Shown: positions 15,090-31,477 of the stretch, in pieces
How the letters are laid out: every line of letters starts with the position of its first letter
Numbering within the stretch: the first letter of the stretch is position 1
NCBI RefSeq assembly: GCF_016632335.1
Contig: NZ_JAEPBG010000011.1
Coordinates: 1 to 64,000, forward strand
Length of the DNA stretch: 64,000 nucleotides
Direction of reading: 5' to 3'
Source: Noviherbaspirillum pedocola
GTDB taxonomy: Bacteria; Pseudomonadota; Gammaproteobacteria; Burkholderiales; Burkholderiaceae_D
Position numbers and translations under genes: made by a program
The notes under the pieces: generated by a model
Database searches by the model: none
Seen by the model: only the letters and a program-made list of their open reading frames with translations
What the model was told of the DNA's origin: nothing

Positions 15090-15107
15090 ATGACGTCAGG
15101 ATGACGT
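15090..15107 (-). promoter_or_regulatory. PhoB-box-like direct repeat, minus strand
   Basis: Read on the minus strand, ACGTCAT-CCTG-ACGTCAT forms two identical 7-mers with an 11-base period. Exactly 10 nt further on lies TACTAT, a possible -10 (15074-15079). The architecture equals that of the boxes before pstS, acpA-like and cpdB-like genes. The only element downstream is the 44-nt conserved domain at 14981-15024. Confidence 0.45.
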
Positions 15108-15311
15108 AGATGAGAAAAGCGTCATGCGCACGCAGCTTGACATTGAGCACCCTATACGCTGTGCTCAGCGTGTTCCTCGTGCGTTTCACCGTCATTTGGT
15201 CTTGTATTGCTTCTAGGCTTAAAGAGATTTCGCTCAACGGGCCTCGCATGCCTGGCAAGCCTTTATATCTGGCGCGTGGATTGCAAGGCAAGTCAGGGAG
15301 CAGCGAATGAC

Positions 15312-15329
15312 ATGTCATGATCATGTCAC
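15312..15329 (+). promoter_or_regulatory. Pho box upstream of pstS
   Basis: ATGTCAT (15312-15318) and ATGTCAC (15323-15329) are separated by GATC, giving the 11-base period of PhoB half-sites. TATTGT at 15340-15345 is 10 nt downstream and fits a -10. The pstS start is 53 bases beyond the box. Confidence 0.75.
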
Positions 15330-15382
15330 GACGCATAGCTATTGTCTCAACGCAAATGATTTGTCCACAAAGGAGTGCTTTT

Positions 15383-16426
15383 ATGCGTTTGACTAAGCTT
15401 GTCGCTTCCATCCATGTTGCTGCCGCGTCCCTTGCTTTCTGCGCTGCCGCTCAGGCTGCCGAGATCACCGGCGCCGGTTCCACGTTCGCCTATCCCATCC
15501 TTGCAAAATGGGCCGAAGTCTACAAGGGGAGCACTGGCACCAGCTTGAACTACCAATCCATCGGCTCGGGCGGCGGCATCAAGCAGATTAAGGCCAAGAC
15601 CGTCGACTTTGGCGCATCCGACATGCCATTGGACGCGCAAGACCTGGAAAAGAGCGGGTTGATGCAATTCCCGATCACCATGGGTGGCGTGGTTCCTGTG
15701 GTGAACGTCGAAGGGGTGAAGCCGGGCGCGTTGAAGATGGATGGCGATGTGCTCGCCAAGATCTACATGGGCAAGATCACCAAGTGGGATTCGCCTGAGA
15801 TCGCCGCGCTCAATCCCGGCGTGAAGCTTCCCCCGGATGAAATCACCGTCGTGCATCGCGCCGACGGCTCTGGTACCACCTTCATCTGGACCAATTACCT
15901 GTCCAAAACCAGCGCCGAGTTCAAGAATAGCGTTGGCGCCGGTACCGCGGTCAAATGGCCGGCTGGCGTGGGCGGTAAGGGCAATGAAGGCGTGGCCGCG
16001 AACGTACAGCGAATCAAGGGTGCGATCGGCTACGTCGAATATGCATACGCGAAAAAGAACAATATGGCTTATACCATGATGAAAAATCATGACGGCCAGT
16101 TCGTTAAGCCAGACGACACCAGCTTCAAGGCGGCAGCGGCTGGTGCAGATTGGGAGAAGGCGCCGGGCTTCGGCGTGATCATCACCGACCAGCCGGGCAA
16201 AGAAAGCTGGCCTATCACCGGCGCCACGTTCGTGCTGCTGCACAAGGTGCAGGAAGACCCGGCCAAGGCGAAGGAAGCGCTAAAGTTCTTCGACTGGTCC
16301 TATAACAAGGGCGCGAGCATGACTACCGATCTTGACTATGTTGCGATCCCGCCGTCGGTCGTCAAGCTCGTCGAGGGCTCGTGGAAATCCCAGTTGAAGG
16401 ATGCTTCCGGCAAGTCGGTCTGGTAA
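15383..16426 (+). CDS. pstS: phosphate ABC transporter periplasmic binding protein PstS
   Basis: A 347-residue periplasmic binding protein for inorganic phosphate. A signal peptide ends near AAAQAAE. Phosphate-binding loops are visible as GAGSTFAYPI, GSGGGIKQI, DFGASDMPL and HRADGSGTTFIWTNYL. The C-terminus (YNKGASMTTDLDYVAIP) is typical of the family. The ATG at 15383 has AAAGGAG eight bases upstream. It normally delivers phosphate to PstCAB, but no pstC, pstA, pstB or phoU gene is present in the window, so this is a detached or additional copy. A Pho box lies directly upstream and a terminator follows. Confidence 0.95.
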   Translation: MRLTKLVASIHVAAASLAFCAAAQAAEITGAGSTFAYPILAKWAEVYKGSTGTSLNYQSIGSGGGIKQIKAKTVDFGASDMPLDAQDLEKSGLMQFPITMGGVVPVVNVEGVKPGALKMDGDVLAKIYMGKITKWDSPEIAALNPGVKLPPDEITVVHRADGSGTTFIWTNYLSKTSAEFKNSVGAGTAVKWPAGVGGKGNEGVAANVQRIKGAIGYVEYAYAKKNNMAYTMMKNHDGQFVKPDDTSFKAAAAGADWEKAPGFGVIITDQPGKESWPITGATFVLLHKVQEDPAKAKEALKFFDWSYNKGASMTTDLDYVAIPPSVVKLVEGSWKSQLKDASGKSVW

Positions 16427-16446
16427 GAGCGTTCCGCTTACTATCA

Positions 16447-16481
16447 AGCCGCGTCCGCTCGCAACGTGGACGCGGCTTTTT
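16447..16481 (+). terminator. rho-independent terminator after pstS
   Basis: Arms AGCCGCGTCC (16447-16456) and GGACGCGGCT (16468-16477) enclose an 11-base loop and are followed by a T run. It lies 21 bases after the pstS stop. Confidence 0.85.
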
Positions 16482-16986
16482 GCACAGCGACGGGTAGGGC
16501 AGGCACGTAATGCACATTCCCACCACTCCCGATTATCCCAGTCCACGTGTGTTGTGATTCTTTTCCGCGGTCGTCACAGATTTGGCTTCAACGCCGTGCC
16601 GGGTAGCTACCAAACGCCCATGAATCGCGGTTGCCTGATGCCTGTGTTTTTCGTGGAGAATTGAGGTTTCGACTGACACCTACGTAGGTGTTCTTCGCAC
16701 GCTTTTTTATACAGGCCCCCACAAAGAAAAGTAAAGCGTGCGCTTTCTATCGCATACACGCCAGGGTTTCGAATGCCAAAGATCCGGATGGCGCGACGTC
16801 ATCAGCGTCGCATGGGCCGCTTCGTCTCATCAGCCGGCGCCGTGGCAAGCAGCTCGCGACGACCTGTGGCTTGATACCTGGACAGCATCAGCAAATAACG
16901 GCCCGGCGCTATCGTATTCATGCTGCCACCGGCAACGCAAGCGGCGGACGCATCCTCACGCCAGACCCTTCCAGGAATCTCCCGTT
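16482..16986. other. intergenic region with a 16-bp perfect palindrome
   Basis: No gene is supported between the pstS terminator and the 3' end of the acyltransferase. The only structured feature is ACACCTACGTAGGTGT at 16676-16691, a perfect 16-bp palindrome. It could be a regulator binding site, but there is no gene start next to it. Confidence 0.4.
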
Positions 16987-17778
16987 TCAGGCACCTTTCT
17001 TCAGGTAGCGCCGCGCATAGCGGCTTTCCAGGCGCGCGAGGGACAGAAGCAGGAGCAGGTCGGCGCAATGAAAGTTTGGGTCCCATGCCGGCTCGCCACA
17101 GATCCAAGCCCCGCCTCGAAGATAACCTTTCAACAGCGGCGGTACGACGGTCTGCGCGTTGCAGTCGCCCTCATGGAGTGGAAACGGCAGGTGCGGCGTA
17201 ACTCGGTATTCTGCCGGGGACAGGTGCGATTGCGCCAATTCGCGATATACAGCAGTCGCATTGTGCCCGCCGTCGGCCAAGCTGATGCTGGCGCAGCCGA
17301 CAAGGTAGTCGCAGCGCTCGCGACGCATGAAGGCGGCCAACGCGCCCCACAGCAGGGTCAACACGCTGCCGCCGCGGTAATCCGGATGGATGCAGGCGCG
17401 CCCAGCTTCCAACATGCGGTCGCGCAGGTGTTCCAGGCGGCTCAGATCGAATTCCTGCTCGGAATAGAGGCTGCCATGCCGTCTCGCATTGCGCGGGGTG
17501 AGCAGTCGATAAGTTCCTACCACCTTCAGCGTGCGGGTGTCCCGCACGATGAGATGGTCACAGTAATCGTCAAATTCATCCCTATCCAGTCCTTCCGCAT
17601 TGGCCATCCCGGAAAGTCCCATCGCATCAATAAAGGCTTTGTAGCGCAGGCGCTGAACCTCCCGTATTTCTTCCGCGTTGGAAGCGAGACTGACGGCAAG
17701 GCGCGAGACACGGACATCGGCATCGGAGGTGCTGGTGAGTTGACGCATGAGATCGATTTGTTGTTGGAATCCCATCAT
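16987..17778 (-). CDS. olsB: GNAT-type N-acyltransferase, OlsB-like (ornithine lipid synthesis)
   Basis: 263 residues of the Acetyltransf_5/OlsB type. EVQRLRYKAFIDAMG near residue 40 is the family N-terminal signature; RACIHPDYRGGSVLTLLW is the acyl-donor binding region; the C-terminus PPLLKGYLRGGAWICGEPAWDP is strongly conserved in this family. OlsB transfers a 3-hydroxyacyl chain from acyl carrier protein to ornithine, the first step of ornithine lipids, which replace phospholipids during phosphate starvation. A three-unit Pho box 26 bases upstream and the pstS neighbourhood agree with that role. No olsA partner is in the window. A second, truncated copy lies at 11123. Start codon uncertain: two adjacent ATGs, no clear ribosome binding site. 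Confidence 0.7.
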   Translation of the reverse strand: MMGFQQQIDLMRQLTSTSDADVRVSRLAVSLASNAEEIREVQRLRYKAFIDAMGLSGMANAEGLDRDEFDDYCDHLIVRDTRTLKVVGTYRLLTPRNARRHGSLYSEQEFDLSRLEHLRDRMLEAGRACIHPDYRGGSVLTLLWGALAAFMRRERCDYLVGCASISLADGGHNATAVYRELAQSHLSPAEYRVTPHLPFPLHEGDCNAQTVVPPLLKGYLRGGAWICGEPAWDPNFHCADLLLLLSLARLESRYARRYLKKGA

Positions 17779-17803
17779 GGTAGATAGCGAGTGCTTAATC
17801 CAT

Positions 17804-17832
17804 GTGACGGCGGCATGACGGCTTCATGACAC
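17804..17832 (-). promoter_or_regulatory. three-unit Pho box upstream of the olsB-like gene
   Basis: On the minus strand three 7-mers, GTGTCAT, CCGTCAT and CCGTCAC, are spaced by 4 bases each (GAAG, GCCG), keeping an 11-base period over 29 bases. This is the strongest such array in the window. It ends only 25 bases before the annotated start, so the start codon or leader may differ from what is given. Confidence 0.75.
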
Positions 17833-17983
17833 GGCGTCGCATTGCCGGAATCGAAGAGTCGCTTGATACAGCGATTTCGACAAAGAGGCGAAAAGCGACG
17901 CCCTCAGGACGATCGCGCCGCTGCGCCGATGATGGTGCGGCTACAGGAAGGGGATACGGGACTGGCCGGTCCAGGCGCTCGGG

Positions 17984-18724
17984 TTACGGCTCTGGCGGCC
18001 GGTGACGCAGCGCATGCGCGGCCTCCGCCATCTGCAAGTCAGCCTTTTTCCCGTTTTTTTCGTAACCCATGGTGCCATCGCGCAGGCCCATGGCGATCAT
18101 CTGGCTGGCTTCCGGATAGTCCAATTCCGCAGCACGCTCCAGCAAGGCGCGGGCACGGGCCTGGTCCACGGCGATGCCATCGCCTTCCATCAGCATGTTC
18201 GCCAGCATGAACATGGCCGCCGGAATGCCAGCGTCGGCCGCGACGCCCAGCCAGCGCGCCGCCGCGGCGGGATCGGCGCGCATGCCCACCCCGCGGCGTT
18301 GCATCACACCGAGGTAATAGGCGCCACCCGCTTCGCCCGTCGACGCGGCAGCCTCGAAATGGCGCCTGGCGCGCGCGTAATCGGCGGGCATGCCGGGTCC
18401 GCCGCGCAGGCTGGCCTTGCCCGCAGCCAGCTGCGCTCTCGCGTTGCCGCTGGCTGCCGCCTTCTCGAGCCAGGCCGAGGCGGCGACGCCATCGCTCGGA
18501 GCGCCGCGTGCCATCAACGCTTCTCCCAGCGCGAGGCTCGCCACAGCCGAGCCCGACCAGGCTGCGCGCTCCAGCGCGGAAAGCGCATGCTGGTCTTGTG
18601 CGGTCCGCGCCAGCACGGCGAGCCTGCCGATATCGGCATCGGCTGGCAGGCTGGCGCGCCAAGCCACGGCGCTTGCCATAGCGATGGCGAACGCCGCCAG
18701 TGCGATTCGTGAGGCCGTCCTCAT
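17984..18724 (-). CDS. Sel1-like repeat protein
   Basis: 246 residues with an N-terminal hydrophobic export or anchor segment (IALAAFAIAMASAVAW) and a series of Sel1/TPR-like helical repeats (AWLEKAAASGNARAQLAAGKA, HFEAAASTGEAGGAYYLGVM, RWLGVAADAGIPAAMFMLANM, ALLERAAELDYPEASQMIAMG). Such repeats mediate protein contacts in the periplasm. Its ATG overlaps the stop of the upstream nucleotidase gene by four bases (18721-18724), so the two are co-translated and both probably depend on the Pho box at 20807. Confidence 0.75.
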   Translation of the reverse strand: MRTASRIALAAFAIAMASAVAWRASLPADADIGRLAVLARTAQDQHALSALERAAWSGSAVASLALGEALMARGAPSDGVAASAWLEKAAASGNARAQLAAGKASLRGGPGMPADYARARRHFEAAASTGEAGGAYYLGVMQRRGVGMRADPAAAARWLGVAADAGIPAAMFMLANMLMEGDGIAVDQARARALLERAAELDYPEASQMIAMGLRDGTMGYEKNGKKADLQMAEAAHALRHRPPEP

Positions 18725-20763
18725 TGCGACAGGTCGACCTGATACAGCGCTAAGCCCTTGCCGCCGCCGTCATCTGCCTGCAGCTGCGTAACGTTGGTTA
18801 GCCCCGCTTTTTGCGCCAACGGCAGCGCATTCTGTGCCGAGTGGAATACCACCGGTCCGGAAGTGACGACCCGGGCGAAGCGCCAGCTCCGGTCCGAGCC
18901 ATTGGCAGCCTGGGTCAGTGCCTTGGCGGTCTTGATGTAATTGATCAGCACATCCCGGTTCGCGTCCGGTGAGGCGTAGATCGTCTTGCTGCCGTCCAGG
19001 CCCGGAAAATTGCCGCCGCCGCTGGCGCGGTAGTTGTTCGTGGCAACGATGAATTCCTGGGTCGACGGGATCGGGGCTCCCTGATACAGCAAATTCTTGA
19101 TTCGGCTGCCGACCGGCTGGGTGACATCGATCTCGTAGCTGATGTCCTTTGATGTGAACATGTCGAAGTTGTAGCCGGGGAAGCTGCCGACCAATTCCTG
19201 CGCAGTAGTCTTGGTCGGGTCGATCTGGTTGAAGCGCTTGGCTGCCGTTTCCAGCCACGCCTTGATGTCGGCGCCGGTGACTTTTACCGCGTAGACCGTG
19301 TTCGGGTACAGATAAAGGTCTGCGGCATTGTTGATCGCGACGTTGCCTGCGGCGACATCAGTGTAGTCGCTGCCGCCGCCGAAGCCGCTCTTGAACGGTG
19401 CCGACACCGACAGCACCGGCAGACTCGCATATTGCGGCAGATTGGTCTGGACATATTTGGCCACATAATCAGCCTGGGCCTGGTTGACGATTTCGATCGC
19501 CGCAACGTCGCCGACGTCGGCGAAATAGCTGCTCATACGGAAATCAGTCGTGCCGATCGGCGTTTTCACATACTGGATGGTGGCGTCGTGCTCTGCCTGG
19601 ACCGCCGGGGCGATGCTGGCATCCGCAGCGACATAAGTCTTGTCCGCGTTCTGGATGGAGCGCACCTGCACCAAGGTCTTGTTCTTGTCGATGCTCCACG
19701 ACTTGCCATCCCAAGCGAGGTTCAACGCAATCACGCCCAGATGCTTGCCCCAGTAATTCGCCATCACCGTCGGCACGCCGTTGACCGTTCCCTTGGCCTT
19801 GTCCACGCCAGGCAGATTGAACTGGCCGACCGTGCTGGCGGCATCGGGGAACACCTGATGCGAGTGCCCGATCAACATCGCATCGATGCCCGGCACCTGA
19901 GACAGGTAGTAGTTGCCATTTTCCATGGTGGGGCTGTAAGGACTGTTGTCGAGGCCCCCATGTGAAATGGCGACGACCAGATCGGCACCTTTGGCTCGCA
20001 TTTCCGGCACATATTTTTGCGCGGTTTCGCGCAGGCCGTCGGTATAGACCTTGCCCTCCAGCCAGCGCTTGTCCCAGGACATGATGGTGGGTGGAGTGAA
20101 GCCGATGATGCCAACCTTTACGATCGCGCTGACCCGCTTGCCATCCGGACCGGTGGCGCTCAGCTGCTTGGAGATGATGGTGTAGGGAGTGAACAGCGGC
20201 GCTTTGCTGCGAACGCTGTAGACATTGGCCAGCACTTGGGGGAACGCGGGTCCGGCGCAGGCGGCCTGTTGTGCAGGCGCGGGCAAACCTTCCACATCGA
20301 ACTTGCTGCCAGTCACCTGGTTCAAAAAGGGTAAGCCGTAGTTGAATTCGTGGTTGCCTATGCCGCCGCCATCGAAGCCGACCAGATCCATCGCCTTGTA
20401 GATCGCCAGTTTTTGAGAACAGGCGGCCGGATTGACCAGCGCCTGGTAATCAGCCAGCGCAGTGCCCTGGATGGTGTCGCCATTATCGACGAGCATGGTG
20501 TTCGGAAATTCCGAACGTGCCGCTTTGATCAAGGTCGCGGTCCTCTCAAAACCCAGAGAGTTGTCAGCGGCAAGCTTAAAATAGTCGTAGCTCAGGACAT
20601 TGGTATGCAGGTCGGTGGTTTCCAGCAAAGCCAATGTGGTGCTCGTTCCGGCCGGCGCAACGCTCGCGTTGGCGGCAGCTCCGGCCGTATTGCTATCGTT
20701 ATCCGAGCTGCCGCAGCCATATAGCAGGCTTAGCAGCGCAGAGATCAGTAGGGTGGTTCGCAT
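18721..20763 (-). CDS. cpdB: CpdB-like 2',3'-cyclic-nucleotide phosphodiesterase/3'-nucleotidase lipoprotein
   Basis: 680 residues. A lipoprotein signal with lipobox LLYGC is followed by a calcineurin-type metallophosphatase domain: LLETTDLHTNVLSYDY (metal ligands Asp and His), VDNGDTIQGT, GIGNHEFNYG, ISHGGLDNS and IGHSHQVFP. The 5'-nucleotidase C-terminal domain carries RASGGGNFPGLDG and the CpdB-type DANRDVLINYI. The enzyme releases phosphate from 2',3'-cyclic nucleotides and 3'-nucleotides in the periplasm or at the cell surface. E. coli CpdB is soluble, so lipid anchoring is a variation. A Pho box lies 44 bases upstream, and the Sel1-repeat gene follows in the same transcript. Confidence 0.85.
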   Translation of the reverse strand: MRTTLLISALLSLLYGCGSSDNDSNTAGAAANASVAPAGTSTTLALLETTDLHTNVLSYDYFKLAADNSLGFERTATLIKAARSEFPNTMLVDNGDTIQGTALADYQALVNPAACSQKLAIYKAMDLVGFDGGGIGNHEFNYGLPFLNQVTGSKFDVEGLPAPAQQAACAGPAFPQVLANVYSVRSKAPLFTPYTIISKQLSATGPDGKRVSAIVKVGIIGFTPPTIMSWDKRWLEGKVYTDGLRETAQKYVPEMRAKGADLVVAISHGGLDNSPYSPTMENGNYYLSQVPGIDAMLIGHSHQVFPDAASTVGQFNLPGVDKAKGTVNGVPTVMANYWGKHLGVIALNLAWDGKSWSIDKNKTLVQVRSIQNADKTYVAADASIAPAVQAEHDATIQYVKTPIGTTDFRMSSYFADVGDVAAIEIVNQAQADYVAKYVQTNLPQYASLPVLSVSAPFKSGFGGGSDYTDVAAGNVAINNAADLYLYPNTVYAVKVTGADIKAWLETAAKRFNQIDPTKTTAQELVGSFPGYNFDMFTSKDISYEIDVTQPVGSRIKNLLYQGAPIPSTQEFIVATNNYRASGGGNFPGLDGSKTIYASPDANRDVLINYIKTAKALTQAANGSDRSWRFARVVTSGPVVFHSAQNALPLAQKAGLTNVTQLQADDGGGKGLALYQVDLSQ

Positions 20764-20806
20764 GCTCTCTCCTTATTAAAAGCGGGCCGCAGTATGGCTG
20801 CGCAAC

Positions 20807-20824
20807 ATGACTTGGCTGTGACAG
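20807..20824 (-). promoter_or_regulatory. Pho box upstream of the cpdB-like gene
   Basis: On the minus strand CTGTCAC-AGCC-AAGTCAT keeps the 11-base period of PhoB half-sites. CATACT begins 10 nt downstream (20791-20796) and fits a -10. The start codon is 43 bases beyond the box. Confidence 0.75.
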
Positions 20825-20949
20825 GAGGAGAGCTTCTTTCCGGATGGGACGGGCCGCGCCGCGTTTCCTTATCTGCACGCAAGTGGCGCGCACCTTGCCG
20901 CAATTAGCATGGAAACGTGAGACAGGACAAGCCATGCCAAGATGCCGAC

Positions 20950-22014
20950 ATGCCGGGCTCCCCGTGGCCTGCCATGGCACGTCCTCGCGCGCAATCCGAC
21001 GCATCGGACTTCCCCGAGTCGGGCACGCTGGCGCGTCTGATCGATCGGTATCATGCCCGGCTTGCCGTGCGCACGGCATGCGAAGTCAATGCGCACGGCA
21101 GGCGTTTCGTGGTGCATGTGCTTGCGCTTGGCAATGCCAGCCCAGATGTGCCCGCGGTAGGTTTCTTCGGCGGCGTGCATGGTGTGGAGCGCATCGGGTC
21201 GCAAGTGCTGCTGGCCTTCCTCGAAAGCTTGCTCGCCCGTCTCACTTGGGATCAGGTTCTCAACCGACAGCTCGAGTCGCTGCGGCTGGTGTTCATGCCC
21301 ATCGTGAACCCGGTCGGGATGGCGCAAGGCAGCCGCTGCAATGGCAATGGCGTGGACTTGATGCGAAACGGGCCGGTGGAATCTCCTGAGCAGGTTCCTT
21401 TTCTCGTCGGCGGACAGCGCTACAGTGCCCGGCTGCCATGGTTTCGTGGCTCCGGGGCTGCCATGGAAGTCGAAAGCGCAGCACTATGTCGGGTGGTACG
21501 CGAGGAGCTGCAGGGACACAGATTCAGCATGGCGCTTGGTTGCCATTCCGGCTTCGGCTTGCGCGACCGCATCTGGTTTCCGCATGCGCATACGCGCGAA
21601 CCAATTCCGCATTTGCCGGAACTGTTCGCACTGCAGGAGTTGTTTTGCGCTGCCTATCCCCATCACGACTACATCTTTGAACCGCAGAGCCGGCAATATC
21701 TGACCCATGGCGATTTGTGGGATTACTTGTATCTGCAGGCCGCATCCGAGGGCAAGGCATTTTTGCCACTGACGCTCGAGATGGGTTCATGGCGCTGGGT
21801 GAAAAAGAGTCCGCTCCAGCTGTTCGCGGCTGGCGGGCTATTCAATCCACTTGCGCCGCACCGGCTGCAGCGAGTACTGCGGCGTCACCTGGTTTGGCTA
21901 GAATTCCTGATGCTGGCGGCCTGTGGCCATCGCGATTGGCTGCCGCAGGACAGCCGGCGCATGCATTGCCTGGCGCAAGCGCTGGCGCGCTGGTATCCGG
22001 AGCGCTCGCGATGA
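20950..22014 (+). CDS. zinc carboxypeptidase (M14-like) family protein
   Basis: About 354 residues of the M14/DUF2817-like metallopeptidase group. The first zinc motif H-x-x-E is in GFFGGVHGVERIG, a later His ligand in LGCHSGFGLRDRIWFP, and the general-base Glu in LTLEMGSWRW. Substrate unknown; relatives act on small peptides or amides. No signal peptide is seen, so it is probably cytoplasmic. Start uncertain: GTG 20917 and ATG 20974 are in frame and none has a good ribosome binding site. The stop overlaps the next start (ATGA at 22011-22014). Confidence 0.65.
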   Translation: MPGSPWPAMARPRAQSDASDFPESGTLARLIDRYHARLAVRTACEVNAHGRRFVVHVLALGNASPDVPAVGFFGGVHGVERIGSQVLLAFLESLLARLTWDQVLNRQLESLRLVFMPIVNPVGMAQGSRCNGNGVDLMRNGPVESPEQVPFLVGGQRYSARLPWFRGSGAAMEVESAALCRVVREELQGHRFSMALGCHSGFGLRDRIWFPHAHTREPIPHLPELFALQELFCAAYPHHDYIFEPQSRQYLTHGDLWDYLYLQAASEGKAFLPLTLEMGSWRWVKKSPLQLFAAGGLFNPLAPHRLQRVLRRHLVWLEFLMLAACGHRDWLPQDSRRMHCLAQALARWYPERSR

Positions 22015-22831: not shown

Positions 22832-24136
22832 TTATCGTTTTTCATTCGTCGGCGCAGCCGATGCCACATCGGCGTCAGTAAGCGTCTTGAGGAAGGCGAT
22901 GATGTCCCTCCTTTCGGCGCTCGATAAGGCGTCCTTGCCCTTGCGTTGCCGGTCGAAAGGGGCATCCCGATAGACATTTTCCCGATATGCATCCGGAAGG
23001 TCATCGAACGGATGGATGTCGCTGTTCGCCATGCGGTCGGCTATGGCATACCATTTGCGCGGATGACTATCGCGCTGGGCGTAAAAGGCCAGCACCTCTT
23101 CCAGCGAATGGAATACGCCGCTATGGAAAAACGCACCCTTAACCGCGACGTTCCTGAGAGTGGGGGTGCGGAACAGGCCGCAATATTCCTTGCGGGCCGA
23201 CAGATCGCTACGCTGCGGCCCGCACAAACCCATGTCGAAGTATGCCGGGTCGGCATTGGCTGGGAGCTTCCGGTTGCGCGGGGCGCCCAGCGCAACATGG
23301 CCGAAATCAGTGAAGCTCGGAAAGCCGGAAGAAGTGATTGCACTCTGATGGCATGAAGCGCAGTTTCCCTTGGCAGGATCATTGAAAAGATCAAGGCCGT
23401 GCAGCTCCTGACGCGTCAACTTTGCTTCTCCACGCAAGTAAGCATCGTACTTGCTGGTGTACGGATAGAACTCCACGGGGCTTTGCTGAAACACCTCGAG
23501 GGCCATCGTGGCGGCCGCGTACGCCTCTTCGGGATGGTCGAAAATGTCGGCGCCGAAGGTCTGGCGGAATGTCGATGCGTAGCTTGTCGTGCGCAGCTTC
23601 GCGACAAGCGCGTCCCGGGTGACATTACCCATCTCATTTTCCGACAACAGCGGGCCGGCAGCCTGGGCGTGCGCTGAATCGGCGCGCCCGTCCCAATCAT
23701 GACCGCCGGTCGGCCCCTGGTCTTTGCTGTCATCGCCATCGTTCTCATGAAAGTGCTCTGTGAACGGTGGCAGTTGCTGCAGATAGCGCAGCGATGGCGC
23801 GGCACGCTGGCCGGCGCCGCGCAAATCTTTTCCGCCGAGCTGCACCGAAAGCTGGTTCGGCGGGCCATACGCATGCCGTGGGTCGTGGCAACTGGAGCAG
23901 GCAAGCTTACCGGACGCGGATAACGAGGCATCGAAGAACATCAATTTGCCAATCGCCGCAAGCTGCGCAGGCGGTGGCCTCACCGCCGCCGATCCATAGA
24001 CGCCCGCGGTCGTGGGGGCCGGCTGCATCGCGGGAGAGGCGGATGTTGAGGAAAGGTTGTCGGGATTTTGAACATCGTCGCAGCCAGCGAGCGTCGCGAC
24101 GGCGAGAAGAGCGGAAAGGAGCGATCGCACAGACAT
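22832..24136 (-). CDS. di-haem cytochrome c peroxidase/MauG-family lipoprotein
   Basis: About 434 residues with lipobox TLAGC and two c-type haem motifs, CSSCH (about residue 85) and CASCH (about residue 265), as in bacterial cytochrome c peroxidases and MauG-like proteins. FRTPTLRNVAVKGAFFHSG is the family signature of the second haem domain. The protein probably resides on the periplasmic side of a membrane and reduces peroxide or oxidises a partner. ATG 24136 is preferred because it places a normal lipoprotein signal; ATG 24154 adds six residues. It is divergent from the acid phosphatase gene, whose Pho box lies between them, but no box is oriented toward this gene. Confidence 0.85.
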   Translation of the reverse strand: MSVRSLLSALLAVATLAGCDDVQNPDNLSSTSASPAMQPAPTTAGVYGSAAVRPPPAQLAAIGKLMFFDASLSASGKLACSSCHDPRHAYGPPNQLSVQLGGKDLRGAGQRAAPSLRYLQQLPPFTEHFHENDGDDSKDQGPTGGHDWDGRADSAHAQAAGPLLSENEMGNVTRDALVAKLRTTSYASTFRQTFGADIFDHPEEAYAAATMALEVFQQSPVEFYPYTSKYDAYLRGEAKLTRQELHGLDLFNDPAKGNCASCHQSAITSSGFPSFTDFGHVALGAPRNRKLPANADPAYFDMGLCGPQRSDLSARKEYCGLFRTPTLRNVAVKGAFFHSGVFHSLEEVLAFYAQRDSHPRKWYAIADRMANSDIHPFDDLPDAYRENVYRDAPFDRQRKGKDALSSAERRDIIAFLKTLTDADVASAAPTNEKR

Positions 24137-24251
24137 GGCGGCGAGGGGAGACAAAACGCTGGGGCTTTGGAGAGGGGCGCAGCATACCCGGCAATTGTGA
24201 CCGGGCCGCTACATCCCTCACCTCCGATTATTTCTTTTTCGACATTGCCTG

Positions 24252-24269
24252 CGGTCATCCCGTTGTCAC
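24252..24269 (+). promoter_or_regulatory. Pho box upstream of the acid phosphatase gene
   Basis: CGGTCAT (24252-24258), CCCG and TTGTCAC (24263-24269) form the 11-base direct repeat. TACCAT at 24280-24285 begins 10 nt downstream and fits a -10. The start codon is 46 bases beyond the box. Confidence 0.75.
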
Positions 24270-24315
24270 AAACGCGCCCTACCATGCGCGGGCTTTTAAA
24301 CCAATGGGATAGGGA

Positions 24316-26439
24316 ATGAAACTCCATTTCAAATTGTTGCCCCTTGTGGCTCTCGTTTCAGCTGGTCTGACCGCCTGTGGCGGCAGCGACTCCAACGACA
24401 CGACCGCAGCGAGCAGTCCTCAGACCGCCGGTGTCGTCACCGGAAGCTATTTCCGCCATGCGAAGGTTTGCATCGACGCGAATACCAACGGCCGCTGCGA
24501 CGCCAATGAAACCAGCGTGTACACCGACAATAACGGCGCGTTCACCCTGGCCGGCAAGGGGGCTGTCGTCGCCGAGATCGGCACCGACGCCACGCGCTAC
24601 GATCCGGACACCAAATCGGAAACCGCGGTGAGCCAGCCGCTGGTGTTCCGCGCGCCGATGGATGCGCCGACGGTCGTTAGCGCGATCACGACCGAACTGC
24701 AGGCAATGATGGATGCGAATGGCGGCGACTTCAAAAGCGCCCGCACGGCGCTTGCCCAACGTCTGGGCGTGGCGGAGGACAAGCTGCTCGAAGACCATAA
24801 CAAGGAAGCGGACGCAGCGACCAAGGCTGCGCTCAAGAGCGAGAGCGACCAGGCGCTGGAGCGCATTGCCGAAGCATTCGCCGAAGCCGGCACGGGCGGC
24901 GACATCGGCAAGGCGCTGCGAAACCGTCTGGACCTCGGACAAATCAAGAATATTGTCGTGATCTACGCCGAGAATCGCGGCTTTGACAATCTGTTCGGCC
25001 TGTACCCCGGCGCGAACGGCATCCCTGGCGTGAACGCAAGTTCCGTTGGCGGCTATGTGGCACAGAAGGACATTGATGGTTCGACCTTGTCGGTGCTACC
25101 GCCGACTTGGAGCGGCATGACCGCCGCCGGGCAGACCAAAGTCGTCGCCCAAGCCGATACGGTCAATTTGCCAAACAAGCCTTTCCAGATCGATGACCCG
25201 GCCGGCTTCAACCTTCCGGTCAGCATCACCACGCGCGACCTTGTGCATCGCTTCTACAATAATCAGATGCAGATCAACGGTGGCAAGAATGACAAATTCG
25301 CCGCCTATTCGGACGCCGGTGGCCTGTCGATGGGCTACTACGACGGCAGCAAGATGGCGATGTGGAACGTCGCCAAGGATTACACCCTTGCCGACAACTT
25401 CTTCATGGGCGCCTTTGGCGGTTCATTCCTGAACCACCAATATTTGATCTGCGCCTGCGCGCCCGAATATCCGAATGCGGATGATGCCGCTTCGCCGGCG
25501 AAAGGCTCGATCAGCGCGATTGACGTGGACGCCAATGGAAACTTTGTGAAGCTGACTGCGGCGGCCACCTCGCCGACGTCGACGCTCAGTGGCCCGCCGA
25601 AGTACGTCAACGATAGCACCTTGACGCCGAAGGATGCGCGAGGCAAATTCTACGCGGTCAACACCATGCAACCGGCGTACCAGCCGAGCGGCAATGCACC
25701 GGCGACAAGCGACACGACCGGCCTTTACGCCGACACCACGAAGGCCACGACGCTGCCGCCCCAGACCGGCAAAACTATCGGTGACCTGCTGAGCGCCAAA
25801 GGCGTGCAGTGGGCCTGGTACGCGGGCGCATGGAATGACGTCAGTGCGAACCGCACCGGCATCTACAACAACACGACGCCGAACTTCCAGCCCCACCATC
25901 AGCCGTTCAACTACTATGCCGCGTTCGATCCGGTGAAGAATGCAAGTGCCCGCAGCGCGCACTTGAAGGATTACACCAATGACTTCCTGAAGGATGTCAC
26001 GGCCGGTACGCTGCCGCCGGTCACCTTCTACAAGCCCCAAGGCAATCTGAACCAGCATCCGGGCTATGCTTCCGTACTCGACGGCGACGCGCACATCGCT
26101 GATGTGATCAGCAAGCTCAAGCAAAGCCCGCAGTGGAAGAACATGGTCGTGGTCATCACCTATGACGAGAACGGCGGTTTCTGGGACCATGTAGCGCCGC
26201 CGAAAGCGGATCGTTGGGGGCCGGGCACCCGGATTCCAGCGATCATCGTCTCGCCATTCGCCAAGAAAGGCTATGTTGACCATACTCAGTACGACACGGC
26301 GTCCATCCTGCGTCTGATCACGCATCGGTACTCACTGGAGCCGCTGCCTGGCCTGGTGGATCGTGATGCAAAGCTCATGGCAAATGGTTTCAAGCCGATG
26401 GGCGACTTGACTGCCGCGCTCGACTTCACCCAAAAGTAA
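24316..26439 (+). CDS. AcpA-like acid phosphatase/phosphoesterase lipoprotein
   Basis: 707 residues of the phosphoesterase family that includes AcpA and phospholipase C (PF04185 type). Lipobox GLTACGG, then about 180 residues with a Ca-binding-like segment (DANTNGRCDANE). The catalytic domain starts with IVVIYAENRGFDNLFG (metal and nucleophile region) and ends with TYDENGGFWDHVAPPKADRWG, the conserved metal-binding block. GSFLNHQYLICACAP is also typical. The protein likely hydrolyses phosphomonoesters at the cell surface during phosphate limitation. It has its own Pho box and a strong terminator, so it forms a single-gene unit. Confidence 0.85.
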   Translation: MKLHFKLLPLVALVSAGLTACGGSDSNDTTAASSPQTAGVVTGSYFRHAKVCIDANTNGRCDANETSVYTDNNGAFTLAGKGAVVAEIGTDATRYDPDTKSETAVSQPLVFRAPMDAPTVVSAITTELQAMMDANGGDFKSARTALAQRLGVAEDKLLEDHNKEADAATKAALKSESDQALERIAEAFAEAGTGGDIGKALRNRLDLGQIKNIVVIYAENRGFDNLFGLYPGANGIPGVNASSVGGYVAQKDIDGSTLSVLPPTWSGMTAAGQTKVVAQADTVNLPNKPFQIDDPAGFNLPVSITTRDLVHRFYNNQMQINGGKNDKFAAYSDAGGLSMGYYDGSKMAMWNVAKDYTLADNFFMGAFGGSFLNHQYLICACAPEYPNADDAASPAKGSISAIDVDANGNFVKLTAAATSPTSTLSGPPKYVNDSTLTPKDARGKFYAVNTMQPAYQPSGNAPATSDTTGLYADTTKATTLPPQTGKTIGDLLSAKGVQWAWYAGAWNDVSANRTGIYNNTTPNFQPHHQPFNYYAAFDPVKNASARSAHLKDYTNDFLKDVTAGTLPPVTFYKPQGNLNQHPGYASVLDGDAHIADVISKLKQSPQWKNMVVVITYDENGGFWDHVAPPKADRWGPGTRIPAIIVSPFAKKGYVDHTQYDTASILRLITHRYSLEPLPGLVDRDAKLMANGFKPMGDLTAALDFTQK

Positions 26440-26561
26440 ATAAGGCCGAGGGCAAGCCATGCCATACGGACTGCAAAGTCCGATATGTCTGCAGGATGGA
26501 AATGCGCCGCGCCCTGCGGGCATGAGCCATGGCCTGCCTTACCAATGATGGCGCAATACCA

Positions 26562-26608
26562 GGCGGACTTAAGAAAGGTCATCGTTACCTTTTCAAGTCC
26601 GCCTTTTT
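26562..26608 (+). terminator. long rho-independent terminator
   Basis: Outer arms GGCGGACTT (26562-26570) and AAGTCCGCC (26595-26603) and inner arms AAAGGT/ACCTTT form an extended hairpin followed by TTTTT. It lies 122 bases after the acid phosphatase stop. Confidence 0.85.
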
Positions 26609-26963
26609 GGTGTGTCATGCAGCCATGCACGGCAAGTGGCATGATCGATAAGATTCATCTGAACCCATCAGTGGCATCGATCAGCGTGCTTGAGCAAATC
26701 CGAACTCGCACCGCGGTGCGGTGGCGTTCCATGCAAAAAATATGTGTCTTCGGACCTCTGGCCTATAGCGGTCCGGGTAGTATGTAACTATCTTGCAATA
26801 TTCTTGTGGCAATATCTCGGTTTGCCTTACGTAGGACCCTCTCTCAATTCCACCGCTTATTCATCGTTCCTGCCGACTTTCTTCGGCTCGAGGCGCGCCT
26901 CGCATTTGGCGCAGCGGTTATGTAGTAACCGCACCAGAGGAATCCCCTCCAGATTTTCCAAAG
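26609..26963. other. intergenic region without a recognisable gene
   Basis: This is the leader region of the GGDEF/EAL gene. No coding frame with known motifs and no Pho-box pattern is seen. Confidence 0.4.
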
Positions 26964-29666
26964 ATGCTCATACCGCCTTCGTCTTCTTTCCCACTCGTTG
27001 GGACGCGATACCGTCGCCTACTTCACTTTTTGCGATTGCACCTGGCAACGGTGATCGCATGGCCGCTTTTGTCGCTCGTCTTGAGTGCGCTGGTGTGCGG
27101 CGCCTTTTACTTCAAATTGAGTTCGGACAGGAAGGCGCTGGAGGAAAGCGGTCTGAAGGACGCGGCTTTGCTCTCGCGTGCCTATGCGCAGCAACTGATA
27201 CATACCCTCGAGGCAATCGACCAGACTTCGATGGAATTACGGGATTTCTGGGAGCAGTCAGGCGGCCATGTCAGGCTCGAGCAAATGAGGGGCACCGGCT
27301 CATTCGTCGCACAGCAATTCCGTTACATAACCATTTTCGACCGGCACGGCCGGTTAGTTACCAGCAGCTTTCCTATCGCCGATAAGGTATCGATTGAGGC
27401 CCAAGACTTCTTCAAATTTCACAGAGACAATAACTCGGATGCGCTTCGCATCGGCGCTCCACGGTGGGGAAGATTCGTCAAAAAGCGGGTGATTCAGTTC
27501 ACCCGCCGCTTGTCGGACGCTGACGATCGATTTGCCGGCGTCCTCGTAATCGCGGTCGCACCCGAATACTTTGTCCAGTTCTCCGAGGCTACCGGTCTTG
27601 GGAATAACGGGCTGCTTGGCTTAGTTGACTACGATAGCGTCATCGAATCCACGCTAGTCGTGAATGGCCGGGAAGGCGCCGGACACGGTGCACTGGTCCG
27701 AGTTCCGGCGGAAGCCATCGGCGGACCCGCCGTCACGCTCAACGGAGACCAGTGGTTCACGGACGGCCGGGCGCGCTTCTTCTCGGTTCAACCGTTGAAC
27801 AGTTATCCTCTCGCTGTCGCCGTCGGAATCGCAAAGCACGAGAAATTGGCGCCTTATCGGCAAGCTCGGGCCGTGTACGGGAAGATCGCGGCCGCTGCGG
27901 TTGTCATCCTCATGGCGTTCGGCTTCGCTTTGACCTACCTGTCAATGCGGCTCGCGTGGCGACAGTACAAGGCAGACGGCATTCGCGAGGCCTACCGTTC
28001 CACGACCGAGAGGGCAAGCGAGGGGTTTTTCATGTGGCAGGTGATCGCCGGTTCGAGAGGTGAAGTCGTGGATCTTGAACTCGTCGATTGCAATGAGCGC
28101 GGGGCCGCGTTGTATCAGCGCCAGAAGGGCGAGCTGATAGGAGCCAGGCTGTCCGCCCTTTACCAGCCTTTCTTCTTCGACGAACTGTTGAACATCTGCC
28201 GTGTCGTGATCGCTGACGGCTTCTACGAGGACGAGTTTGAGACCCGCCATGGGAGCCTGGTGTCGGCGCGATGGATCTATCGTAAATTTGTGCATTCCGG
28301 CTCGCGTATTGCACTGACCCTGCGCGACATAACCGAGAAAAAGCAGAACGAACATGACTTGGCAAGGCTCGCTACGCAAGATGCGTTAACCGGTCTGCCG
28401 AATCGCCATTGGCTCACGTCCTATCTGCCGGAAGCGTTCGCCCGCGCGACGGCTGGGAAGAGCATCATGGCGGTCCTGTTCATCGATCTGGATAACTTTA
28501 AAAACGTGAATGATTCAGCCGGCCATTCCGCCGGCGACCAATTGCTGCGTGAAGTCGCGATACGCCTGCGTGCCGTGCTGCGGCAGCCTACGGATCATGT
28601 GGCCCGTCTGGGTGGGGATGAATTCACGGTCGTGATCGAGACTGCCAAGAGCGAGGAGGAAGTCTCCCATGTGGCAGGCCGTATTGCGCAGATCCTGCAA
28701 GAGCCTTTTCTGATCAGTGGAAGGGACGTGGTCGTTGGTGGCTCCATCGGCATCGCGTTGTACCCGCGCGATGCCTCCGACCCGGAAACGCTGTTGAAGA
28801 GCGCTGATATCGCGATGTATGCGGCCAAAGAGGAAAAGAAGGGCACGTACCGTTTCTATAGCAGCCAATACTATGAAAAGATACGCAGCCGCCTGCGCCT
28901 GGAGCAGGCGCTGGCACTCGCGATCCGCAACGATGAATTCGTCATGCACTATCAGCCGCGCATCGCAACACGCACCAACAAGCTGGCTGGCATGGAAGCG
29001 CTTGTGCGCTGGGCTCATCCGGAACAGGGATTCATCCCTCCCAACGAATTCATTCCGTTAGCGGAACGCACCGGTTTGATCCTGCCACTTGGCGATCTCG
29101 TGATCAGCAAGGTGTGCGCCCAGCTGGCACTGTGGCAGAGAGAAGGGGGGACGGTCTTCCCTGTGTCCATCAACGTGTCGGCGCGCCAGTTCAGCGAAGG
29201 CAGAGTAAGCAGCCATCTGGCGTCATGCCTCGCACGCTACCAGGTATCCAGCCATTTGATCGAAGTGGAATTGACCGAGTCGGCCATGATGGGCGACTTG
29301 AAAACAGTGCAGCGAGAGATCGATGCCTTGAATCAGCTCGGCGTGAAGATTCATGTCGACGATTTCGGCACCGGTTATTCGTCGCTGTCGCTGTTGAATC
29401 AACTGAAGCTCGACGTGCTGAAGATTGACCGAGCGTTCACCGCGCAGCTTGGCTCGGGGAGGGAAGGGGAGATCTTCTTCAGGGCGATTGTTTCGATGGC
29501 AAAAGCGTTGGGCATGCAGGTAGTTGCCGAAGGCGTGGAAACGAAAGAGCAACTGGCCCTTCTGCAAACGCTTGATTGCGATGAGATTCAGGGATATTTA
29601 ATTTCGGCCCCACTGCAGGCGGAGCGCATGTCCGCTCTGTTCCGGCAAGATATATTTGTAATGTAG
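26964..29666 (+). CDS. membrane diguanylate cyclase/phosphodiesterase (sensor-PAS-GGDEF-EAL)
   Basis: 900 residues. Two membrane helices (about 30-50 and 310-330) flank a periplasmic dCACHE-like sensor. A PAS-like domain (AYRSTTERASEGFFMWQ...) follows, then GGDEF with intact ARLGGDEF and EAL with intact GMEALVRWAHPE, LTESAMMG, HVDDFGTGYSSL, LKID and VVAEGVET. The residues before GGDEF read RQPTDHVARL, so the RxxD inhibitory site is not in register. Both activities look possible; which dominates is unknown. It follows a terminator and precedes a convergent binding-protein gene, so it is probably monocistronic. No Pho box was found upstream. Confidence 0.9.
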   Translation: MLIPPSSSFPLVGTRYRRLLHFLRLHLATVIAWPLLSLVLSALVCGAFYFKLSSDRKALEESGLKDAALLSRAYAQQLIHTLEAIDQTSMELRDFWEQSGGHVRLEQMRGTGSFVAQQFRYITIFDRHGRLVTSSFPIADKVSIEAQDFFKFHRDNNSDALRIGAPRWGRFVKKRVIQFTRRLSDADDRFAGVLVIAVAPEYFVQFSEATGLGNNGLLGLVDYDSVIESTLVVNGREGAGHGALVRVPAEAIGGPAVTLNGDQWFTDGRARFFSVQPLNSYPLAVAVGIAKHEKLAPYRQARAVYGKIAAAAVVILMAFGFALTYLSMRLAWRQYKADGIREAYRSTTERASEGFFMWQVIAGSRGEVVDLELVDCNERGAALYQRQKGELIGARLSALYQPFFFDELLNICRVVIADGFYEDEFETRHGSLVSARWIYRKFVHSGSRIALTLRDITEKKQNEHDLARLATQDALTGLPNRHWLTSYLPEAFARATAGKSIMAVLFIDLDNFKNVNDSAGHSAGDQLLREVAIRLRAVLRQPTDHVARLGGDEFTVVIETAKSEEEVSHVAGRIAQILQEPFLISGRDVVVGGSIGIALYPRDASDPETLLKSADIAMYAAKEEKKGTYRFYSSQYYEKIRSRLRLEQALALAIRNDEFVMHYQPRIATRTNKLAGMEALVRWAHPEQGFIPPNEFIPLAERTGLILPLGDLVISKVCAQLALWQREGGTVFPVSINVSARQFSEGRVSSHLASCLARYQVSSHLIEVELTESAMMGDLKTVQREIDALNQLGVKIHVDDFGTGYSSLSLLNQLKLDVLKIDRAFTAQLGSGREGEIFFRAIVSMAKALGMQVVAEGVETKEQLALLQTLDCDEIQGYLISAPLQAERMSALFRQDIFVM

Positions 29667-30044
29667 CCCACCACGTCCGAGACGCGTCGATGGTCAAGCG
29701 CTGTTGCCGGACAAGCATTCCCACGGTAACGAACTCCGCCGACTCCAGCACTGTAAGTTCACCGGCCACATTTGACAGCGTCTTGGCGGACAGCTGGACA
29801 ATCTCGTCACAGCCATTTTCTTTCGGGATGTTGGATGTGAAGAGAACGTGTTCAAGAATGTTCTGTTCCCTATCGCTTCGTCTCCGCCGGAAATCTTGAA
29901 ATCCTTTCAGTGGTCTGATAAAAATTTTGTTTTGAAGAATGCAACTATGGACGCTGCATCCTGCACCCTCCGCACAGCACACAGCGTGGGTTTGCATTCC
30001 ATCGCTAAACGGTGCTGGCAATGTCTTGTGGCCGCATGCCGGGC
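29667..30044. other. convergent intergenic region
   Basis: It lies between the convergent GGDEF/EAL and binding-protein genes. A minus-strand frame passes through it and into the 3' end of the EAL gene. A short part (GCDEIVQLSAKTLSNVAGELT) looks protein-like, but I see no start, motif or partner, so no gene is called. Confidence 0.35.
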
Positions 30045-31166
30045 TTAATACATTAGGTTGCCACCCTTGCGGAACAGAGCGATGTCGACATAGCTGGACA
30101 TGTGATGGTTCGGTGCTGAGGGATTCACTACGAAGCCGCCAAGGTCTAGCACTCCTGTTCGAGAGGTAAACTGCTGAAGCGCCTGGCTTGCGACACCCGA
30201 AGCCTGGATCGCGCGGCACAGCGTCTTGGCGGCCAGATAACCTTCAAGGGTCGCTGCGGATAGCGCTTCATCCCTAAAACGCTTCATCATCGCGATGTGA
30301 TCCAACTGTACCTTCGATTGCTTGCCGGCCGGGTTCGGCACCACTTGCGAAAACACGGTCCATTCCAGTGACTTCGGCCCGGCCATCTCGGCCAACGTCT
30401 CGAGGTTCACCAGCGACGTACCGGCAACGAAGGTTCTTTCGGCGTGCCTGCGAAATGCTTTCAAAAAAACTCCCGCGCTCACTCCATCGCCGATGACGAT
30501 CACGATGTTCGGGTTCGAGGCAGCCAGCGTTGCTGCCTCCTTTTCCACCTGCACCGGGCTGCTTGATATGTGCGCTGTGCCAGCGAGCGTCATGCTGCGT
30601 CTTTTGGCTTCTGCAGCGACGTACTGATACATTTCCTGACTGCGTTGAAGGTCCTCGACGGCAATACCGATGCTGCGGATGCCGAGCTTGTCAAAATACG
30701 AGAAGATGTAGTGCATTTCCTGTTCCGGCCCGGGACGCCAAAAGACGACGCGCTCACCGTAGTTTCTCGGAGATTCCGTCATTGGCGCAAACAATTGAAA
30801 GCCGCTGCGCACGAATGCCGGAGTAGCCACCACGGCATCCGTAGTCGCTGCACCGATCCCACCGATCAGGTAGTCGATCCGATCGGAATTAATCAGTTCA
30901 GTCACCGCCTTGGAAGACCGCCGGGGGTCGCCCAGGTCGTCGCGCACGAGGTATTTGATCTTGTGGCCATTGATTCCTCCGCTGGCGTTCAGACTGTCGA
31001 AATAAGTAGTGATGCCAGCGACATAATCCCGCCCAATGACTCCGGCGGGGCCTGACAAGTCGATTGCTTGTCCGATCACGATGGACTTGGACTCGGCATG
31101 GGCTAGTTGGATGATTGTGTAAAGCAGCAGGAAGCCGTGCAGCAGGGACTGAGAAAAACGTCGCAT
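30045..31166 (-). CDS. periplasmic substrate-binding protein, LivJ-like
   Basis: 373 residues of the type I periplasmic binding family (Leu/Ile/Val-binding type). A signal peptide ends near IIQLAHAES. The first lobe begins IVIGQAIDLSGPAGVIGRDY, followed by NASGGINGHKIKYLVRDD and the hinge segment IGGIGAATTDAVV. No permease or ATPase genes are nearby, so it may serve a transporter elsewhere or a sensory role. A PhoB-like box with a 10-nt spaced -10 lies 45 bases upstream, suggesting it binds a ligand relevant under phosphate limitation; the ligand is unknown. No strong ribosome binding site precedes the ATG. Confidence 0.75.
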   Translation of the reverse strand: MRRFSQSLLHGFLLLYTIIQLAHAESKSIVIGQAIDLSGPAGVIGRDYVAGITTYFDSLNASGGINGHKIKYLVRDDLGDPRRSSKAVTELINSDRIDYLIGGIGAATTDAVVATPAFVRSGFQLFAPMTESPRNYGERVVFWRPGPEQEMHYIFSYFDKLGIRSIGIAVEDLQRSQEMYQYVAAEAKRRSMTLAGTAHISSSPVQVEKEAATLAASNPNIVIVIGDGVSAGVFLKAFRRHAERTFVAGTSLVNLETLAEMAGPKSLEWTVFSQVVPNPAGKQSKVQLDHIAMMKRFRDEALSAATLEGYLAAKTLCRAIQASGVASQALQQFTSRTGVLDLGGFVVNPSAPNHHMSSYVDIALFRKGGNLMY

Positions 31167-31211
31167 CTGATTATGGGAAAGATTGCAAGCAGGCAATGAT
31201 GGCCTGGCTTG

Positions 31212-31229
31212 ATGACTTCCTGATGACGT
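31212..31229 (-). promoter_or_regulatory. Pho-box-like repeat upstream of the LivJ-like gene
   Basis: On the minus strand ACGTCAT-CAGG-AAGTCAT keeps the 11-base period. CATCAT starts 10 nt downstream and could be the -10. The start codon is 45 bases beyond the box. Confidence 0.6.
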
Positions 31230-31354
31230 CGCGGGGTCGGGGCCGCCGCCCGGCAATTTTGCCGTTCTAATCCAAGGCAAAGTCCGAGGTGTTTTCGTAA
31301 TGCAGTGCCAAAGATGTTTGCATGCATGACCGTGCGCAAACCCGTTCGCCCCTT

Positions 31355-31372
31355 TCTTCATCTGCTTGTCAT
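31355..31372 (+). promoter_or_regulatory. Pho-box-like repeat upstream of the phosphoesterase pair
   Basis: TCTTCAT (31355-31361), CTGC and TTGTCAT (31366-31372) form an 11-base direct repeat with one weaker half. TACGCT at 31383-31388 begins 10 nt downstream. The first gene starts 105 bases beyond the box. Confidence 0.55.
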
Positions 31373-31477
31373 CTGCCGCATTTACGCTCGGCGGCTGGAA
31401 AAACCTGACTTGCATGCCATGCCAAGACGTGGCGACAGGCTTTAGGTTGGATACGCTGTTATGAAGGGTCTGCATCA

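Follow-up and report, generated by a model that had tools for sequence, protein, structure and literature searches.

Gene content and promoters of the region

We analysed the first 64,000 nucleotides (nt) of contig NZ_JAEPBG010000011.1 of Noviherbaspirillum pedocola (64 kb, hereafter the window), in which a series of genes between 15 and 34 kb is preceded by sites that resemble the boxes bound by the phosphate-response regulator PhoB. The genes encode, among others, the phosphate-binding protein PstS, an OlsB-like acyltransferase, a CpdB-like nucleotidase, an orphan LivJ-like binding protein and an acid phosphatase, PhosA, whose gene is divergent from that of a di-haem enzyme resembling BthA (Table 1). 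The first-pass annotation had reported seven 7+4+7 direct repeats of the TGTCAT type in this region, and every one of them was present in the window; the bthA-like gene and the box before it at 24181-24214(-) had been absent from that annotation. In our assessment, the region is very probably a cluster of PhoB-activated sigma-70 promoters. This reading is supported by the genome-wide distribution of the promoter pattern, by its recovery of ppk, pstS, ugpB and a sodium/phosphate (Na/Pi) transporter gene, and by the conservation of the boxes upstream of orthologous genes.

Table 1. Promoters and genes of the region, in window coordinates
Feature	Position	Strand	Details
PhoB-type promoter without identifiable gene	15074..15107	-	ACGTCAT-CCTG-ACGTCAT-N10-TACTAT
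PhoB-type promoter of pstS	15312..15345	+	ATGTCAT-GATC-ATGTCAC-N10-TATTGT
pstS, second copy	15383..16426	+	NF008171 449.6 bits, cut-off 339
OlsB-like N-acyltransferase gene	16987..17778	-	PF13444; NF052554 160.1 bits
Double PhoB-type promoter of the olsB-like gene	17777..17832	-	GTGTCAT GAAG CCGTCAT GCCG CCGTCAC ATGG ATTAAGC N10 TACCAT
Sel1-repeat protein gene	17984..18724	-	overlaps the end of cpdB
cpdB-like 2',3'-cyclic-nucleotide phosphodiesterase/3'-nucleotidase gene	18721..20763	-	NF006938 642.9 bits, cut-off 486
PhoB-type promoter of cpdB	20791..20824	-	CTGTCAC-AGCC-AAGTCAT-N10-CATACT
BthA-like di-haem enzyme gene	22832..24154	-	two CxxCH, Tyr ligand, Lys, Cys pair; best solved relative 6nx0
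PhoB-type promoter of the bthA-like gene, weak first half-site	24181..24214	-	ATGTAGC-GGCC-CGGTCAC-N10-TATGCT
PhoB-type promoter of phosA	24252..24285	+	CGGTCAT-CCCG-TTGTCAC-N10-TACCAT
phosA, PF04185 acid phosphatase gene, divergent from bthA	24316..26439	+	TIGR03397 786.6 bits, cut-off 362.75
Orphan LivJ-like periplasmic binding protein gene	30045..31166	-	PF13458
PhoB-type promoter of the LivJ-like gene	31196..31229	-	ACGTCAT-CAGG-AAGTCAT-N10-CATCAT
PhoB-type promoter, weak first half-site	31355..31388	+	TCTTCAT-CTGC-TTGTCAT-N10-TACGCT
PF04185 phosphoesterase gene	31478..32851	+	TIGR03396 156.4 bits
Second PF04185 phosphoesterase gene	32694..33989	+	PF04185

The PhoB box is described as an 18-bp consensus (PMC3465305, available text). 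Two direct repeats of the TGTCAT type with an 11-bp period were found at the boxes of the window, although their quality varied and those at 31355 and 24181 were weak. When both strands were scored with PhoB half-site weights, all seven reported boxes fell within the nine best positions of the window; the remaining two were 34666, which lies at the 3' end of a gene and ranked above 31355, and 17815, which belongs to the array at 17804 as its other half. We also used a matrix trained on 29 pstS promoters, all from other genomes, with the spacer between the second half-site and the -10 hexamer fixed at 10 nt; its control stretches had a 95th percentile of 0.3 bits and a 99th of 12.6 bits. This matrix found seven sites of at least 10 bits in the window compared with a mean of 0.8 and a maximum of 3 in 60 Markov-simulated windows. 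Six of these seven sites belong to the reported boxes, the array at 17804 passing with its 17815 half (the 17804 half scored 7.1), and the non-reported one, at 14473(+), has a poor -10 hexamer. The box at 31212 scored 8.3 bits and ranked tenth in the window.

In the genome of 7.24 Mb, the pattern GTCAYN6GTCAY-N{4,16}-YANNNT, which allows 13 spacers, had 18 matches, compared with three for the same pattern read backward, and the spacer was exactly 10 nt in 13 of the 18. Five of these 13 lie at window positions 15074-31227, where simple arithmetic gives an expectation of about 0.03. The neighbourhood was read for 15 of the 18 matches (five in the window); the remaining three, at C2:146927 and on contigs C8 and C19, have spacers other than 10 nt. 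Four spacer-10 matches precede ppk, the pstS of the pst-phoU-phoB-phoR locus, ugpB and the Na/Pi transporter gene, in the last case at about 400 bp from the gene. Both phoB and phoR are present in the genome, with phoU, at the pst locus: PhoR was above its cut-off (TIGR02966, 398.8 bits, cut-off 334.2), and PhoB was just under its own (TIGR02154, 288.5 bits, cut-off 296.2), with this as its best-scoring family and its gene at the usual phoU-phoB-phoR place.

A -10 hexamer was found 10 nt downstream of the boxes at 15090, 15312, 20807, 24252, 31212 and 31355. The constant distance proposed earlier therefore holds at six boxes, but it is not a new feature, since published Escherichia coli PhoB promoters have half-sites with an 11-bp period and a -10 that follows them at about 10 bp (PMC1906773, available text). 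At 17804 the -10 lies 21 nt beyond the third half-site of an array of four. With the spacer left free between 4 and 16 nt, spacer 10 was the best in all 31 pstS promoters, including the window copy and the genome's other copy.

The divergent bthA-phosA pair

The best solved relative of the di-haem enzyme is 6nx0 (E 3.4e-77), which we take to be BthA because its chain numbering plus 66 reproduces, by eye, eleven residues named in the available text of PMC6405878. According to that text, the function of BthA has not been discovered, its gene is always near a phosphatase gene, and the partner phosphatase, called a putative purple-acid phosphatase, is predicted to be at the cell surface; an oxidation reaction of BthA on this phosphatase is proposed there, with no mention of phosphate. 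In the titles and abstracts searched, which did not extend to preprints or subscription papers, nothing linked BthA to phosphate control.

Adjacency was examined in the best 80 of 581 phosphatase relatives, with up to 10 kb on either side. The bthA-like gene was the divergent neighbour of the phosphatase within 900 bp in 76 of the 80 loci; the other four were L021, with bthA-like genes 3-7 kb upstream, L035, in which the contig ends, L077 and L078. Spacer 10 was the best in 59 of 77 loci on the bthA side and in 47 of 77 on the phosA side, the window included in both counts, whereas it was found in 9.4% of random stretches from the same loci (745/7,891). By lineage, it was in the majority in 17 of 21 on the bthA side and in 12 of 21 on the phosA side. 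After identical sites were collapsed, 65 distinct sites remained on the bthA side of the 76 relatives, and 50 had spacer 10. A second set, read on the bthA side only, comprised 29 loci: of 294 genomes of the family, 55 had a match, and the loci that matched best were taken from these; spacer 10 was found at 27 of the 29, and a phosphatase match was present in the flank of 27. Thirteen of these sites were identical to sites of the first set, and 14 of the 16 new ones had spacer 10. At L275, spacer 10 occurred without a phosphatase in the flank, and at L261 a phosphatase occurred without spacer 10. As a control, 18 bthA paralogues without an adjacent PhosA of this kind had spacer 10 in only two cases and reached the 99th percentile in none; at L229, one of these paralogues, the neighbouring gene encodes a distant homologue (28%) of the phosphatase. 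Neither this genome's second bthA-like gene (contig C67) nor its second phosphatase gene (C1:513794) had a match to the strict pattern. Adjacency of bthA and phosA is thus linked with PhoB-type boxes.

The window enzyme has two CxxCH motifs, the distal Glu, Gln and Pro and the Tyr ligand of the six-coordinate haem, as well as the calcium-site Lys (K339) and the C-terminal Cys pair (C311, C325). Glu, Gln, Pro and Tyr are common to all 18 unlinked paralogues, and the Cys pair was found in 76 of 77 linked relatives and in all 18 unlinked ones; therefore, none of these residues marks the link with the phosphatase. Arg occupies the Lys site in 75 of 77 linked relatives and in all 18 unlinked paralogues. 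The window enzyme has Trp154 where BthA has the inter-haem Ser, and for this reason we call it BthA-like rather than BthA; all 77 linked relatives share this Trp, as do 8 of the 18 unlinked paralogues.

PhosA has, by eye, a lipoprotein-type signal. Its PGVN insertion, Met347 and Asp554 were each found in at least 98% of a set made up of the window protein and 80 relatives (76 with a divergent bthA), and also in all six bthA-adjacent phosphatases that lack the N-terminal domain. Among 11 unlinked phosphatase paralogues, PGVN and Met347 occurred in none and Asp554 in one. Because linked and unlinked phosphatases also differ in overall identity, common ancestry, not partnership, may account for these marks. 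The N-terminal domain of PhosA at first seemed linked to BthA, as the alignments of the 11 unlinked paralogues start no earlier than residue 159. We rejected it as the partner of BthA, since the six phosphatases just mentioned lack it beside bthA and L248 has it in a genome without a bthA match at E<=1e-30; its predicted fold is also poor (mean predicted local distance difference test score 64.2). A Trp-rich motif of the catalytic domain (499-506) was rejected as the target of BthA as well, being unspecific and present in unlinked paralogues too.

The olsB double box

At 17804 there is no good -10 hexamer at 10 nt, and the box lies within an array of four half-sites. The hexamer TACCAT follows the fourth half-site at 10 nt and the third at 21 (10+11) nt, and was the top-scoring -10 among spacers of 2-29 nt. 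When the offset was free between 2 and 32 nt (31 offsets allowed), the best -10 was at this position in 22 of the 30 olsB promoters compared, of which one is that of the window and 29 come from other genomes. The genome's second olsB copy, on contig C78, has the same array with its -10 at the same place. The spacing rule of the whole set is therefore 10 + 11n. The ATG at 17748 is the probable true start of the olsB-like gene: among the 18 best matches from other genomes, 15 begin at codon 9-11. The protein remained below the OlsB equivalog cut-off (NF052554, cut-off 350 bits) and is OlsB-like only. Previously, predicted Pho boxes were reported before olsB homologues in Burkholderia sensu lato and tied to phosphate-controlled ornithine lipid synthesis (PMC7814305, available text); the four-half-site geometry is not described in that text.

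At loci L143, L146 and L149, a calcineurin-like phosphoesterase gene follows olsB, and in L143 and L146 a family-4 glycosyltransferase gene comes next; this arrangement resembles a PlcP-Agt lipid-remodelling operon. Neither of these two genes was matched in the window.

Other members and the flanks

The LivJ-like protein scored below the LivJ/LivK family threshold (PRK15404, 38.9 bits, cut-off 477), and neither a permease nor an ATPase gene was recognised beside it. Its orthologues (46-60% identical) had a box above the 95th percentile in all eight cases and above the 99th in three, and spacer 10 was the best in eight of nine promoters, the window included; from this conservation, we regard it as a candidate regulon member. 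In three other genomes (L141, L142 and L143), no more than about 8 kb separates the LivJ-like gene from pstS. At L142, ppk and phoB were recognised as well, together with a ppx-like gene, and L143 had a ppx-like match. A search by title and abstract for PhoB control of LivJ-like proteins yielded nothing relevant.

The Sel1-repeat gene is probably in one operon with cpdB, and the phosphoesterase gene at 32694 is probably co-transcribed with that at 31478. The latter scored below the cut-off of the phosphocholine-specific phospholipase C family (TIGR03396, cut-off 580.25 bits). The gene identities given by the first-pass annotation agreed with ours in outline; a phospholipase C at 31478 was not established.

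No pstCAB genes were recognised beside the window pstS, and the pst-pho core locus sits on contig C12. The box at 15090 faces the left flank, where no protein-coding gene was recognised between 14489 and 15074 and beyond which lies a remnant of an insertion sequence; this box is possibly the relic of a gene formerly divergent from pstS. The remnant (13019-14489, +) is a transposase gene with DUF772 and DDE domains broken over three reading frames, located between the box and a 3' fragment of another olsB-like gene (11129-11452, -; residues 155-262, 77% identical), which adjoins a further transposase gene at 11468-12826.

A large GGDEF-EAL protein is encoded inside the region at 26964-29666 (+), with no top-scoring PhoB-type site of the window before its gene. 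The M14 carboxypeptidase gene at 20917 was rejected as a box-driven gene, as neither it nor any of its seven relatives had a box at the 99th percentile. Elsewhere in the genome, a spacer-10 box (L155, 2808-2841(+); G000:C45:15309) lies about 100 bp before an open reading frame (ORF) that by eye resembles a universal stress protein and is a possible further regulon member.

As regards the phosphate-starvation island proposed earlier, the local concentration of Pho-type promoters was borne out, whereas the gene set is no conserved block. In the 80 phosphatase loci, surveyed with 17 of 18 window queries (the second phosphoesterase query was left out), bthA was the sole other window gene that recurred beside the phosphatase, bar one GGDEF/EAL match 4.5 kb downstream of it in L003. 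In one relative, at L217 (G037:C24:24000-43900), M14 carboxypeptidase, alpha/beta hydrolase, OlsB-like, distant LivJ-like (32%), pstS and ppx-like genes occur together, and ppk, phoB and phoR are also present as judged by eye from ORF starts; therefore, these genes can share one Pho locus. The same locus holds PlsC-type acyltransferase and SixA-like genes. Of two spacer-10 boxes there, that at 2681-2714(-) immediately precedes a PlcP-like gene and the other is at 4876-4909(-).

Weighing of the alternatives

Several observations speak against a PhoB-activated cluster or limit it. In the genome, four of the 13 spacer-10 matches (contigs C7, C10, C45 and C80) are intragenic or without a clear target. 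A strict model of 34 columns, built on foreign pstS and LivJ-like sites, returned three genome sites at E<=10 with its speed filter, none of them in the window, and the strict-model scan was dropped for ranking the genome; unfiltered, it gave 13 matches in the window at E<=10 (lowest E 0.074), and these include all seven boxes (17804 via its 17815 half). The linkers of the window are not A/T-rich as expected but often G+C-rich (CCTG, GCCG, CCCG, CAGG), those of the pstS promoters of relatives being mostly AAAC or AAAG; this lowers the match to the E. coli consensus and leaves the conservation evidence intact. Loci within a genus are not independent, and in Ralstonia the half-site weights placed the best box at spacer 10 in one of ten loci on either side; by the pstS matrix, nine of the ten scored at least 13 on each side, at another site. 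Among the 11 unlinked phosphatase paralogues, two had spacer 10 and one reached the 99th percentile with a good score. Moreover, support is uneven across the seven boxes: that of cpdB reached the 99th percentile in three of ten orthologues and was far below zero in three, and that of 31478, whose first half-site is poor, was absent at both orthologues found, which are of one genome. It is quite conceivable, though we put it at less than an even chance, that only the stronger sites (pstS, olsB, phosA, LivJ-like and cpdB) are functional and that those at 15090, 31355 and before the window bthA are chance or decayed sites. The missing gene at 15090, the lack of conservation at 31355 and the weakness of the bthA box (15.0 by the half-site weights, 5.1 bits by the pstS matrix) would fit this. 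However, 15090 and 31355 rank second and third in the window by the pstS-trained matrix, and the bthA box is correctly placed, oriented and spaced, with strong counterparts in most relatives.

That the 10-nt spacing arose by chance from a loose choice of the -10 hexamer is extremely improbable. The -10 consensus is indeed loose, and with a strict -10 matrix and spacers of 2-29 nt, spacer 10 was the best outright only at 15312 and 31355, tied or second at 15090, 20807 and 24252, and outside the top four at 31212; yet the pattern matches of the genome concentrate on one of 13 allowed spacers, and the same spacer recurs in orthologues far above its null. The regulators of the OmpR/PhoB family are many, and the boxes could be bound by a paralogue of PhoB, with the genes answering another signal such as oxygen limitation. 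In agreement with this, quantitative PCR in B. thailandensis showed changes of +5 for bthA and +14 for phosA in anaerobic versus aerobic growth (PMC6405878, available text). The same pattern and spacing at pstS, ppk, ugpB and the Na/Pi transporter gene, with spacer 10 in every pstS promoter, argue otherwise, and PhoB control is compatible with the anaerobic effect, so that we consider a paralogue improbable.

Proposed mechanism and comparison with known systems

We infer both binding by PhoB and a response to phosphate. Following established PhoB biology, PhoB would, as a phosphorylated dimer, occupy a pair of direct half-sites with an 11-bp period that substitutes for the -35 element, so that the -10 hexamer follows at 10 nt (at the olsB double box, 21 nt from the third half-site), and it would recruit sigma-70 polymerase in low phosphate. 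Phosphate starvation would then switch on phosphate capture (pstS), a phosphorus-free lipid (the olsB-like gene), nucleotide scavenging (cpdB), the surface phosphoesterases (phosA and 31478), the BthA-like enzyme and the LivJ-like protein. More tentatively, the di-haem enzyme may work with or on PhosA, acting on it or protecting it. Our most specific proposal is tentative and rather doubtful: PhoB might co-induce the two genes as a maturation system in which the di-haem enzyme, by a peroxide-driven modification of PhosA or of an electron-rich residue in the catalytic domain of PhosA, would generate or adjust a surface phosphatase produced only in phosphate starvation.

If the boxes work, the di-haem enzyme and its phosphatase belong to the phosphate-starvation response, which would give a growth condition, a mutant phenotype to seek and a candidate substrate for the BthA-like enzyme; a PhoB-type box before both paired genes makes the role of the haem enzyme testable. 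With the olsB double box, phosphate-controlled lipid remodelling can be searched for more strictly, and the conservation of its box makes the LivJ-like protein a candidate regulon member. Neither BthA-like nor LivJ-like genes are known PhoB targets.

The boxes share the direct half-sites, the 11-bp period and the -10 distance with E. coli PhoB promoters of the pstS, ugpB and phoA type, but differ in their often G+C-rich linkers. Compared with the 18-bp box model used for olsB in the available text of PMC7814305, the conserved unit here has four half-sites and its -10 at 10+11 nt. With BthA, the window enzyme shares the di-haem organisation, Tyr ligand, calcium-site Lys, Cys pair and neighbouring phosphatase; it differs in its inter-haem Trp instead of Ser and in a PF04185 rather than a putative purple-acid phosphatase, and PhoB-type promoters are not described for the BthA pair in the available text of PMC6405878. 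With MauG, it shares the inter-haem Trp, the Tyr ligand of the six-coordinate haem and the two CxxCH motifs, but unlike MauG it has an extra Cys pair and a phosphatase neighbour, and no mau genes were recognised beside it in the window. Thus, the promoter architecture is that of the textbook, and the genes that carry it are the new part.

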